Shown here piece by piece: positions 12,315 to 16,413 of a stretch of DNA of 20,945 nucleotides. The first letter of the stretch is position 1; each line of letters begins with the position of its first letter. The notes under the pieces are model-generated. The model searched no databases. It saw only the letters and a list, made by a program, of their open reading frames with translations, and had not been told where the DNA came from. Origin of the DNA: a virus; IMG/VR virus record IMGVR_UViG_3300037882_001994, positions 1-20,945 of that record; one strand, 5' to 3'. A program made the position numbers and the translations under genes.

Positions 12315-13037
12315 TTGAAGCTAATTATACCGACACTATTTACGCCATCATCATCGATATTCTCACCGAGCGATGTGAGTGGATTACTTGCGTGGTGGAA
12401 ATCTGATGCGGGAGTTTTAAACCCATCTAATGCCGGAGCTGGGCATAGCGATCATGTGAAAACTTGGCAAGATCAATCTGGAAACAGCAGATCACTAGAG
12501 CAGAACACTGGTGCTAATAGACCTACTTATAACACAAGTTCATTCAGTAGGCCTGTTATCGAATTTGACGAGCTTGGGCCTGATTTTCTTATTACATCGA
12601 CAACTCAGCCAAGCGATACAGTGCCTTATACTATTTTTTTAACATGGGCACCAAGAACAGGCGTGAACAATGCTTCAATTGTTTTCAATACTAACCAAGC
12701 AGGAGTTGGTTCTTTCTTTCTAGAAGATGCTGGCACTGACACATTTTATTTAAACGCTGGCGCAAGTGTTTTGGGCTCAGCTTATACGCTAAACTCATTT
12801 GCATATTCAGCAATTGTCTTTAATGGTGCAAGCTCTAAGCATTATAAGAACGGTACACTCATCGGCACGGATAACCCGGGAACTAGAGCACTTGCAGGAT
12901 TTTGCCTAGGCGCTTACATCACAGGCGGTGATCCGACTCATATGTATGTTAGTGAGTGTTTAATATTTAACTCAGAATTGAGCGCAGGCGATCTTGCTAA
13001 TATGCACAGCTATTTAGCTGGGAGATTGCCAGCATGA
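12315..13037 (+). CDS. LamG/concanavalin-like lectin-fold virion protein
   Basis: 240 residues. DVSGLLAWWKSDAGV (20-34), then W-Q-D-Q-S-G-N (about 51-57) and N-R-P-T-Y (68-72) are the signature opening of LamG-type jelly-roll proteins; the H-Y-K-N-G-T-L-I-G (about 181-189) and M-Y-V-S-E-C-L-I-F (about 212-220) segments are the matching later strands. These domains bind sugars or glycoproteins. In a phage this suggests a head or tail adhesin. The start is TTG 12315, one base after the previous stop; no ATG or Shine-Dalgarno is available, so translation is likely coupled. No signal peptide is seen. Confidence 0.75.
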   Translation: MKLIIPTLFTPSSSIFSPSDVSGLLAWWKSDAGVLNPSNAGAGHSDHVKTWQDQSGNSRSLEQNTGANRPTYNTSSFSRPVIEFDELGPDFLITSTTQPSDTVPYTIFLTWAPRTGVNNASIVFNTNQAGVGSFFLEDAGTDTFYLNAGASVLGSAYTLNSFAYSAIVFNGASSKHYKNGTLIGTDNPGTRALAGFCLGAYITGGDPTHMYVSECLIFNSELSAGDLANMHSYLAGRLPA

Positions 13038-13482: not shown

Positions 13483-15741
13483 GTGGGTTATGCTTTTAAT
13501 CCATTCACTGGGAACCTAGATAACACAGGAGCGGGCGCAACTCCTGCTGGCTCAAATACTCAAATTCAATTTAATGATAGCGGAGCTTTTGGCGGTGATG
13601 CTGGTTTAACCTATAATAAAACTACCGACAAATTATCTAGCACTATAAACGCACTCGCTGCGACAACTCTTTCTGCTCACGTTTTAGAAAATACAACTGC
13701 GGCTTTGACGGGTGCAAGAATACAAGTTTCTCCTGCTACTCAATGGAGTGGCAGAGGCTGGAAAACAAATTCAGTAGCAGGCAGTCAATCGGTAGACTAT
13801 CGAGCTTACACGTTGCCAATAACTGCATCGGTGAGCCCGATAGCTCAATGGAAACTACAATCATCTGTAAATGGTGCCGCTTATTCAGATTCCATTGCAT
13901 ATCAGAATCAAGTCTCTGACGGAACAAACATCGGGCTTTTTACTGTCACGGGGTTTCATAAAATAACGGCGAGTAACTCATCAACCATTAGCACACTTCA
14001 AAATCTAGATATAACAAATACGTCTGGGACCAGGACACATCTTACTTTTAGATTTGGGTCAACAATTCAATCGGGGATAACTGCGCAAGATAACGGACTT
14101 ATATCAATTAGGTCGGCGGGAAGCTCTCAGACAATTAATTTTGAAATTGGCTCGGGGATCGAATCAACTAACCTAGTGGGGCAATTCTATAGCGGTGGTC
14201 TTTATGTTTCGGGTAGTGGTTTTCATACATCTAAAGTAACAGCTGGAAGCGGAGATACTTCCGTACAAACCACTCTATCAACCTATGGCTCATTTGCGGC
14301 TAAGGGGAGATTGGTAACAGATAGCTCGTACACTTTAGCAGAAACTGAGACCTTTGTTTATGTTGATCCGAGCAATGCGAATATTTGCGCCGGAACTCCT
14401 GCGGTGACTTGCTCAGTGCTAAACGAAGCAAATTGCAATGCTAATACTGCGGTCGGATGTACTTGGTATGCGGGCGATTCTTGCGGAGGCGCTACTGGCA
14501 CCGACTCTGGCACCTGTACGGGTCAGGGCGCTGGATGTACTTGGGAAGAAACTTCGTGTTCAAGCGCAAACAATACCGACCAATCAACTTGTGAAAATCA
14601 AGATGATGCTTACGGCGGAAATTGTGCCTGGGATACTTCAACCTGCCCAGGTCAAACAGATCAAGGTGGATGTGAAGCAATTTCGGGATGTACTTGGAAT
14701 TTTTCAGACTGCGCAAATTTCAATGGAAACAGCCAAGCAACTTGTGAAGGAAATGCAGGATGTAGCTGGACGGGAGCGGCTTGTTCTGCTTTCGATGCAA
14801 CTGATCAATCAACTTGTGAATCAGGTCATACGGGCTGCTCGTGGGATAGTGGTAATAGTCTTTGCGTAGGCGTTTATGACGAGGCATCTACTTGCGCTGG
14901 GCAATACGATACTTCATGCTCCGGGGATCTTTGTTCTGGGAATTTTGCAACTGGGAATTGTACAGGAACTTTTGGAGCAACTTGCAATGGAACCGCAGCG
15001 TGCAGTAATTTAACAGATGATGGCTCTGTAACTTGTAATGCTCAGAGTGGATGCACTTGGACTACGGGGGTTACTGTTACCCTGCCGACGACTACAAATG
15101 CGAACAGAAGCGGAACAGGAAGAGTTTATAGTATTATCCACGTTGGCGAAACTGGGACCGTGAACATCGTCGGCCAATCAGGCCAGCCGATCTTTCAATA
15201 TACAAATCTGCCGCTGCTTAAAAAGGGTGATAAAGTTTTACTTCATAATCAAAACATTACTTTTCAGTGCTCTGTTTTTGTAACATCAAGCCCATGTAAT
15301 GCGCAAACAGGATGCACATGGAGAGATTGCCCTGCCTTTGGCGATCAGTCTTCTTGCGAAGGCGCTGGGTGTGCTTGGAATGGAGATACCAACGTTTGTG
15401 AAGGTGCAATTAGTTGTATAGGCACTTACTCAAATGGCGCTCACTGGTATGCTCATTCACTAGAGCGAGGATTAAATTACACTGAGAAAACAGCTAACTA
15501 CACGCTTTTATCTATTGATGATGTGGTGAATTGTACGGCAAATAGCTTCGCCATTACTTTGCCTAGCGCACCTTTGAACAATGGTAAAAGGTATGAGATA
15601 AAAAATACAGGCGCTGGAACAATAACTATGAACACTACGAGCGGCCAGACGATTGATGGCAATGCGAGCGGAGTCTTAACTATCGCGGCAGGAAGTCAGA
15701 TGTCAGTAGTTTCAAATAATACAAATTGGATAAGAATATGA
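13483..15741 (+). CDS. large fibre protein with cysteine-rich repeat insertions
   Basis: 752 residues from GTG 13483, with AAGGA upstream. The opening YAFNPFTGNLDNTG and SNTQIQFNDSGAFGGDAGL (24-42) are typical fibre N-terminal modules. A Thr/Ser-rich beta region follows to about residue 300. Residues 302-526 hold about 28 cysteines in repeats built on [GN]C[TSA]W; a shorter block with eight cysteines is at 596-645. Between and after them lie two similar beta modules (YTL...V-x-LP...GTV/TIT...), so the cysteine blocks look like insertions in loops of a fibre domain. It probably binds the host surface. The next gene is a CxxC thioredoxin-like protein. Confidence 0.8.
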   Translation: MGYAFNPFTGNLDNTGAGATPAGSNTQIQFNDSGAFGGDAGLTYNKTTDKLSSTINALAATTLSAHVLENTTAALTGARIQVSPATQWSGRGWKTNSVAGSQSVDYRAYTLPITASVSPIAQWKLQSSVNGAAYSDSIAYQNQVSDGTNIGLFTVTGFHKITASNSSTISTLQNLDITNTSGTRTHLTFRFGSTIQSGITAQDNGLISIRSAGSSQTINFEIGSGIESTNLVGQFYSGGLYVSGSGFHTSKVTAGSGDTSVQTTLSTYGSFAAKGRLVTDSSYTLAETETFVYVDPSNANICAGTPAVTCSVLNEANCNANTAVGCTWYAGDSCGGATGTDSGTCTGQGAGCTWEETSCSSANNTDQSTCENQDDAYGGNCAWDTSTCPGQTDQGGCEAISGCTWNFSDCANFNGNSQATCEGNAGCSWTGAACSAFDATDQSTCESGHTGCSWDSGNSLCVGVYDEASTCAGQYDTSCSGDLCSGNFATGNCTGTFGATCNGTAACSNLTDDGSVTCNAQSGCTWTTGVTVTLPTTTNANRSGTGRVYSIIHVGETGTVNIVGQSGQPIFQYTNLPLLKKGDKVLLHNQNITFQCSVFVTSSPCNAQTGCTWRDCPAFGDQSSCEGAGCAWNGDTNVCEGAISCIGTYSNGAHWYAHSLERGLNYTEKTANYTLLSIDDVVNCTANSFAITLPSAPLNNGKRYEIKNTGAGTITMNTTSGQTIDGNASGVLTIAAGSQMSVVSNNTNWIRI
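14386..15060 (+). repeat. cysteine-rich repeat block 1 in the fibre gene
   Basis: Encodes seven [GN]C[TSA]W motifs spaced irregularly, with a common order Q-x-x-C-E-x(3-9)-C-x-W-x(3-6)-C. At DNA level the 12-mer GGATGTACTTGG recurs exactly at 14455, 14533 and 14686, so the block seems to have grown by recent duplication. Cysteine codons mix TGC and TGT. Confidence 0.85.
15268..15417 (+). repeat. cysteine-rich repeat block 2 in the fibre gene
   Basis: Encodes eight cysteines and two further CxW motifs (GCTW, GCAW), with the same Q-S-S-C-E spacing as block 1. It interrupts the beta module directly after LLHNQN and before HWYAHSLERG, a second insertion point of the same repeat type in one protein. 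Confidence 0.8.
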
Positions 15742-16172
15742 TCTTGAACGAGAGTAATTTTCACGAATCAATCGCAGGGAAAAAAGTTATCGTAATGTTT
15801 TATAGAGAATCGGGCTGTTCGTTTTGTGATAAAGCTAAGCCTATTTTTGAATCTTATGAGGGCAACGAGAAAGCAATGTATGCTCTAGGGCAAGTTCCTG
15901 ACTCGATCAATGAAGAGTTTCCTATTGAAAGATTTCCTACGTTTTACGCTTTTGAGAATGGAAAAGCTGTTAATAAAATGGAAGGCGTTCCTACTCATGA
16001 AAAACTAGACGCGCTATTTAATCCGCCTGTTTTAAAAATAGAAGAGGCACCGCTAGAAGTATTATTGAAAGATGAGGCGATTATCATAGATAAAATTTAT
16101 CCTTTAGCATCTCACCTTAAAGTGATTAGAGCTGAGATAGCAAAAAGAAAAGAGGCAATTAGTGGGCTGTAA
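15738..16172 (+). CDS. thioredoxin-like protein with CSFC active site
   Basis: 144 residues from ATG 15738, overlapping the fibre stop in ATGA. The thioredoxin fold is seen in KVIVMFYRESGCSFCDKAKP: active-site CSFC at 27-30, and the cis-proline at Pro67 in RFPTFYAF. A non-thioredoxin C-terminal helical tail of about 40 residues follows. There is no signal peptide, so it works in the cytoplasm or inside the assembling particle. It could reduce or reshuffle disulfides in the cysteine-rich fibre encoded just upstream; a general thiol role in virion assembly or in DNA synthesis is the alternative. Confidence 0.8.
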   Translation: MILNESNFHESIAGKKVIVMFYRESGCSFCDKAKPIFESYEGNEKAMYALGQVPDSINEEFPIERFPTFYAFENGKAVNKMEGVPTHEKLDALFNPPVLKIEEAPLEVLLKDEAIIIDKIYPLASHLKVIRAEIAKRKEAISGL

Positions 16173-16413
16173 GGCTTGCAAATTCCCATCGCTCGCAGAA
16201 CAGGCTTCAAACGTGAGCATTAGCCTGTTTAATGTGATTACTCAGGCACTTAAAACTGGTCAGGTGATAGCTAGTGGTAGCGAAGTTCAACACAGAGTAG
16301 ACTTGTGTAATGGTTGCAAATTTTTACAAGATAACCGCTGCTCAGAATGTGGTTGCTTTATAGCTTTAAAAGCAGGGCTGAAGTCAGAGAAATGCCCTAA
16401 AGGTAAGTGGTAA
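16162..16413 (+). CDS. cysteine-rich zinc-ribbon-like phage protein, 83 aa
   Basis: Eight cysteines at residues 3, 6, 49, 52, 60, 63, 65 and 78, as CxxC, CxxC, CxxCxC and a final C-P-x-G-K-W. The second half (LCNGCKFL, RCSECGCFI, EKCPKGKW) matches a common small phage zinc-ribbon-like family with an unknown job. GTG 16162 is preceded by AGAGG and overlaps the thioredoxin-like gene by 11 bases. The central 30 residues form an amphipathic helix. Metal binding is likely; the role, perhaps in fibre attachment, is unknown. Confidence 0.6.
   Translation: MGCKACKFPSLAEQASNVSISLFNVITQALKTGQVIASGSEVQHRVDLCNGCKFLQDNRCSECGCFIALKAGLKSEKCPKGKW

Follow-up and report, generated by a model that had tools for sequence, protein, structure and literature searches.

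A cysteine-rich fibre and a thioredoxin-fold protein are encoded in one module that recurs in several uncultured bacterial viruses, which are otherwise unrelated. In all 14 viral contigs with the cysteine domain (the window and 13 relatives) the thioredoxin is encoded on the same strand, zero to two genes downstream of the fibre. Since this co-occurrence emerges from three search directions, a functional pairing of the two proteins is strongly supported. Considering the linkage together with the intact catalytic site and the conserved cysteines of even count, we find it rather probable that the product of the thioredoxin-like gene is a cytosolic thiol-disulfide oxidoreductase, which the phages keep specifically for folding the cysteine-rich part of the fibre.

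Gene order in the window and the cysteine-rich fibre

The window, i.e. the whole IMG/VR contig of 20.9 kb, stems from a tailed phage and contains genes for terminase, major capsid and tape-measure proteins. Head genes are followed by the fibre, thioredoxin-fold and DUF6171 genes and then by tail genes (Table 1). When we re-derived the open reading frames and their overlaps, the coordinates and the description of the three genes in an earlier note on this sequence proved correct. As it had described, a CxxC thioredoxin-like gene (CSFC, ATG at 15738) overlaps the stop of the cysteine-rich fibre, by 4 nt, and is itself overlapped, by 11 nt, by the gene for an 83-aa protein with eight cysteines. 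An alternative thioredoxin start is TTG at 15726, yet the ATG agrees with the N-termini of homologues and gives the ATGA overlap. Two further genes of the window may be mentioned here. Directly 5' of the fibre (12315-13037) lies a gene whose product, with a lectin domain of the concanavalin A-like type (Laminin_G_3, E=5e-5, under the cut-off), is a phrog_10356 virion protein and perhaps a second surface-binding protein. The product of 5615-6508 matches a beta-glucosyl-HMC-alpha-glucosyltransferase of PHROGs (E=9e-33), which suggests glucosylated DNA or another sugar transfer.

Table 1. Features of the fibre module in the window
Feature	Position	Strand	Description and evidence
Fibre ORF	13483..15741	+	GTG start, 752 aa, 37 Cys; Cys-rich virion fibre
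N-terminal adaptor motif (NTQIQFNDSGAFGGDAGLTYNKTTDKL)	13483..13641	+	Common to many phage fibres without Cys block
Cys block 1, residues 302-524	14386..15054	+	CxxxxxGCTWxxxxC-type units; alignment A9, Cys spacing
Cys block 2, residues 596-645	15268..15417	+	After Cys-free beta-rich segment; A9, AF2 secondary structure
C-terminal fibre domain (TLPSAPLNNGKRYEIKNTGAGTITMNTTSGQTIDGNASG...NWIRI)	15496..15738	+	Only in some relatives; alignment A5
ATGA overlap, fibre stop/thioredoxin start	15738..15741	+	Sequence
Thioredoxin-fold protein, class A	15738..16172	+	ATG start, 144 aa; Pfam PF00085, AF2, Foldseek
CSFC active site, residues 27-30	15816..15827	+	Both Cys invariant in all relatives; alignment A8
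C-terminal helix, residues 106-142 (37 residues)	16053..16163	+	Beyond thioredoxin domain; AF2 DSSP
DUF6171 protein	16162..16413	+	GTG start, 83 aa, 8 Cys; Pfam PF19668, phrog_13558, alignment A6
phrog_5084 protein, 87 aa	16415..16678	+	Similar protein 3' of DUF6171 gene in L097

The adaptor motif at the start of the fibre (its first ~53 residues) also occurs in many other viral contigs, and the first 60 aa match proteins of Synechococcus phages that are annotated as tail fibre or 'mtd'. By this shared adaptor the protein belongs to the tail or virion fibres. Homologues with the same fibre body and cysteine domain occur in other viral contigs; the median across 63 fibre loci with the same adaptor is a single cysteine. 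In the window, 36 of the 37 fibre cysteines fall within residues 302-645, arranged in two blocks. An alignment of 13 sequences (A9) revealed that 30 of these 36 positions are invariant vs 26 of 333 other columns, so that the cysteines, conserved far above chance, are the best-conserved residues of the domain. Moreover, the domain has an even number of cysteines in 12 of the 13 sequences, despite their differing lengths. Both the even counts and the conservation are predicted by disulfide pairing, and the spacing is unlike that of zinc fingers. Tandem repeats in the DNA, considered as a source of the cysteine units, were not found.

Neither a sequence comparison nor Foldseek (no hit with E<=0.001) matched the cysteine domain to a solved fold. 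The AF2 model of the fibre has a pTM of 0.36, and its overall predicted shape is thus unreliable. A search of predicted structures yielded one fragment of apparently the same cysteine domain, from an uncultured phage, as well as matches of ~60 residues that include proteins named tail fibre and collagen-repeat proteins. The part of the fibre that carries the cysteine domain is probably receptor-binding. Neither this domain nor the thioredoxin class turned up in the bacterial genomes, plasmids and isolate phages searched.

Association of fibre and thioredoxin across phages

Every contig recovered with the fibre as query encodes the thioredoxin downstream. Searching with the thioredoxin led only to contigs with this fibre, or with its C-terminal end where the contig is cut. 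Among the 14 positive contigs, L084 ends 99 nt past the fibre and was counted via that stretch, MLILNEKNFKEELSKHPQVLVFFYREKGCSFC. As controls we used unique fibres that share the adaptor but lack the cysteine block and are followed by 2 kb or more of sequence; a fibre-linked thioredoxin was present in none of 36 (Fisher p 1e-12). The single weak match in this set, a glutaredoxin-like ORF of L058 (E=0.007), lies at a distance of 4.6 kb, next to what appear to be genes for ribonucleotide reductase. A third search started from a ~140-aa protein whose gene immediately precedes that of the fibre in many relatives. Among unique contigs with this protein, the thioredoxin occurred in all 10 that have the cysteine fibre (L084 again counted via its 99 nt) and in 0 of 13 that lack it (p 9e-7). 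These Fisher values ignore shared ancestry and, given the descent of every contig from some shared module, overstate independence. Poor sensitivity does not explain the zeros in the controls, as the thioredoxin profile also detects ordinary thioredoxins (E. coli TrxA, 43.5 bits). Hence a frequent occurrence of the gene beside fibres without cysteine repeats, which the earlier note had named as the observation that would speak against its proposal, was looked for and not seen (0/36 and 0/13). The upstream protein also led to L188, in which the fibre lacks the usual N-terminal body and has kept the cysteine domain; a CPYC thioredoxin follows after 1 nt. Distances between fibres and between thioredoxins are correlated only modestly (Mantel r=0.34, p=0.004).

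The module resides in various phage backbones. Mu/P2-type baseplates are encoded near it in L087, L005 and L090, a podovirus-type portal and internal virion proteins in L100 and L103, a phrog_12 portal in L099, and other head genes in L084 and L085; one further carrier is a tape-measure phage. Between fibre and thioredoxin there are either no genes or genes for proteins of 85 aa, ~185 aa, 384 aa, or 92 plus 105 aa. As intervening genes and backbones vary while the pair remains constant, function accounts better for the association than simple linkage. The coupled translation that the earlier note had made part of the system does not extend to the relatives: the 4-nt overlap is specific to the window, gaps elsewhere are between 1 and 1,168 nt long, and translational coupling thus cannot be a general feature. 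In L094 (871-1578) a single reading frame joins the thioredoxin to the C-terminal portion of a capsid protein of the HK97 type (PF05065, E=5e-7), which points either to recombination of the cassette into a capsid gene or to a chimeric contig. The gene after the CPKC thioredoxin in L005 (8957-9346) and L086 (12521-12922) encodes a protein ending in VCECD and VCDCEE, respectively, a C-terminal CxC motif.

The thioredoxin-fold enzyme and the DUF6171 protein

The 144-aa protein matches the Pfam family Thioredoxin (PF00085) at E=1.3e-8. A thioredoxin fold is also predicted by AF2 (mean pLDDT 88.5), with Foldseek matches to thioredoxins at TMt values of mostly 0.7-0.8. The redox-active CxxC and the cis-proline that mark the thioredoxin superfamily are both present: C27, C30 and P67 are invariant in 12 of 12 sequences (A8), and L188 has CPYC and APAT. 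The dipeptide between the cysteines is SF, SH, PK or PY, never GP, and no tryptophan precedes the first cysteine; the enzyme therefore lacks the classical WCGPC motif. We refer to the CSFC and CSHC forms as class A and to the CPKC and CPYC forms as class B. In the tree, ordinary phage thioredoxins part the two classes (93/94), but an independent recruitment of class A and class B is only suggested by these sequences. Two recruitments are not proven, since the AU test keeps one clade possible (p=0.246), and the unrooted fibre tree also permits class B as a single group. By inspection the enzyme has no signal peptide, which is why it is probably cytosolic and would act where the fibre is made.

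The third gene encodes a member of DUF6171 (PF19668; E=1.8e-10, 41.5 bits, cut-off 27). Its product has an N-terminal CxxC and a C-terminal CxxC...CxxCGCF...CPKGKW pattern, and these cysteine motifs are probably a zinc site. DUF6171 genes follow the thioredoxin in five contigs with the fibre (the window, L002/L088, L090, L097 and L099) and are absent from six others that extend far enough (L092, L095, L086, L087, L005 and L188). Furthermore, the family is found in dozens of phages without a cysteine-rich fibre, including cyanophages and phages of Stenotrophomonas and Rhizobium, and is therefore not a required part of the system. Thus, of the three-gene co-occurrence that the earlier note had proposed to look for in other phages, the fibre/thioredoxin pair stands (14/14), whereas the tie to the third gene is loose. 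The extra N-terminal CxxC is present in 10 of 53 unique DUF6171 proteins, including all five fibre-linked copies.

Two contigs without DUF6171 encode thioredoxins with a cysteine-rich C-terminal tail (L092:9998-10519, CCESCSDGGSCSGGH; L095:9989-10510, CCDGCAEGNGCGGGH). In L188 (10124-10264) the thioredoxin stop is overlapped by the start of a further gene. Its product, of 46 aa (MSCNECGW...), has two CxxC motifs and what appears to be a membrane helix. These tails and the 46-aa protein may be equivalents of DUF6171. Unrelated cysteine-rich proteins, probably virion proteins, are encoded near DUF6171 genes in the virion-gene regions of five contigs (L164:5782-6942, L165:4052-5629, L169:3303-4850, L106:2-2008 and L107:3254-7528). 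They have 32-63 cysteines (44-63 in L164, L165 and L169; 32-54 in L106 and L107) and no nearby thioredoxin. Cysteine richness alone thus does not require such an enzyme; DUF6171 itself may be linked more widely to cysteine-rich virion proteins.

Possible roles of the enzyme and comparison with known systems

If the enzyme serves the folding of the fibre, it would probably act as a PDI- or DsbA-like oxidant or isomerase, giving the domain of ~36 cysteines its correct disulfides during fibre folding, before or around lysis. The enzyme may hold the fibre by its helical C-terminal extension, and the small CxxC protein encoded after the thioredoxin may, as a weakly supported addition, have an accessory role as a thiol or metal partner. 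Linkage and catalytic competence are supported by the data, whereas we infer the identity of the substrate (the fibre), the disulfide-bonded final state of its domain and the direction of the reaction. Of the dedicated folding or oxidation system proposed in the earlier note, the pairing is borne out by co-occurrence, but oxidation gains no support over isomerisation or reduction, and a 'redox control' of the fibre is unsupported. Counting against disulfide formation, fibres are built in the cytoplasm, which is normally reducing, and an FAD thiol oxidase of the Erv1, DsbB or Ero1 type was not recognised with PHROGs and Pfam among the ORFs of the 20.9-kb window, which is a fragment.

The main rival explanation is a reductase or holdase, which we consider unlikely. 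Such an enzyme would prevent the many fibre thiols from pairing by keeping them reduced in the cytoplasm, so that the fibre remains soluble and can trimerise; disulfides would form spontaneously in air after lysis. The probable cytosolic location and the lack of an oxidase partner in the window fit this role, the best Foldseek E-value belongs to E. coli YbbN, and the predicted C-terminal helix could offer a surface for holdase activity. Yet host thioredoxin and glutaredoxin already perform such reduction, which would make a dedicated copy redundant; the CGPC or preceding tryptophan of reductases is never present; and the superposition with YbbN is poor (rmsd 12.9), the enzyme having no TPR domain. 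It is improbable, though conceivable, that the thioredoxin sits on the fibre as a virion component and shuffles disulfides of the fibre or the receptor at the cell surface during attachment. The gene lies among structural genes, the modelled helical extension could be a docking segment, and vaccinia G4L, on which the formation of viral disulfides depends, is likewise packaged into virions (PMC9282662); the case is one of gene position and analogy.

We give very little credence to a passive cassette, in which fibre and thioredoxin merely move together and the enzyme supplies, e.g., electrons to ribonucleotide reductase or processivity to a polymerase. The module clearly moves between phages, and thioredoxin-fold genes can serve nucleotide metabolism, as the position of the L058 glutaredoxin-like gene illustrates. 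Against this, the thioredoxin persists while other cassette genes come and go, and it is missing from all 13 unique contigs with the upstream protein but no cysteine fibre. A reductase or T7-like polymerase was not recognised in the window, and among the contigs scanned only L103 has a ribonucleotide reductase subunit, the small one, near the module. Both roles were therefore rejected, the L058 ORF being the only control match.

A fibre-dedicated oxidoreductase, by comparison, could have broader implications. Phage fibres usually contain few cysteines and assemble in a reducing cytoplasm, and cystine-rich units normally arise only outside that compartment. If the reading is true, a fibre with ~36 paired cysteines and its own oxidoreductase would show a route to cystine-rich binding tips of phages and be the counterpart, in a bacterial virus, of the disulfide pathway of poxviruses; it might also yield a compact enzyme for producing disulfide-rich proteins in the bacterial cytoplasm. 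We tentatively suggest, as a possibility short of an expectation, that this is the first known cytosolic disulfide-folding system of a bacteriophage, in which the enzyme, possibly with a small CxxC partner, enables a receptor-binding tip of cystine-rich units. Candidate partners are DUF6171 with the extra CxxC, the cysteine-rich tail fused to the thioredoxin, and the 46-aa protein of L188. A literature search that reached few subscription journals returned no paper on a phage fibre with a dedicated phage-encoded thioredoxin. Taken together, the constant pairing suggests that these viruses carry their own enzyme for handling the disulfides of the fibre, a capacity known from poxviruses and, within the literature searched, not found for phages; the broader class of virus-encoded maturation enzymes for virion proteins is already known.

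Among fibre-specific assembly chaperones, T4 gp38 and Tfa are encoded directly after their fibre. The present module resembles them in having a small, directly downstream gene devoted to maturing one fibre, but the helper is a thiol-disulfide enzyme rather than a classical folding chaperone. With CnoX/YbbN, a thioredoxin-domain chaperone or 'chaperedoxin', the enzyme shares the best Foldseek E-value and a thioredoxin domain with helical extension, whereas it has no TPR repeats (144 aa, a single C-terminal helix), another active site and the above rmsd over the full alignment. Likewise, it has the fold, CxxC and cis-proline of the PF00085 thioredoxins, including those of phages, and differs in its CSFC, CSHC, CPKC or CPYC site instead of CGPC, the missing preceding tryptophan and the long C-terminal helix. 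It is encoded in a structural-gene region beside one fibre type, whereas the annotated phage thioredoxins that we checked sit among tRNA and hypothetical genes. The third gene is a member of DUF6171/phrog_13558, from which the fibre-linked copies differ by the extra N-terminal CxxC. The closest functional parallel comes from vaccinia virus, whose E10R, A2.5L and G4L are virus-encoded, late thiol oxidoreductases that make disulfides in cytosol-facing virion proteins and show that virus-run disulfide chemistry is possible in the cytosol (PMC1318495, PMC9282662). Both systems would have a virus-encoded thiol oxidoreductase for a virion protein; an FAD-linked oxidase of the E10R type was found only in vaccinia and not in the 20.9-kb fragment studied here, and the presumed substrate is a phage fibre, with no sequence relationship claimed.
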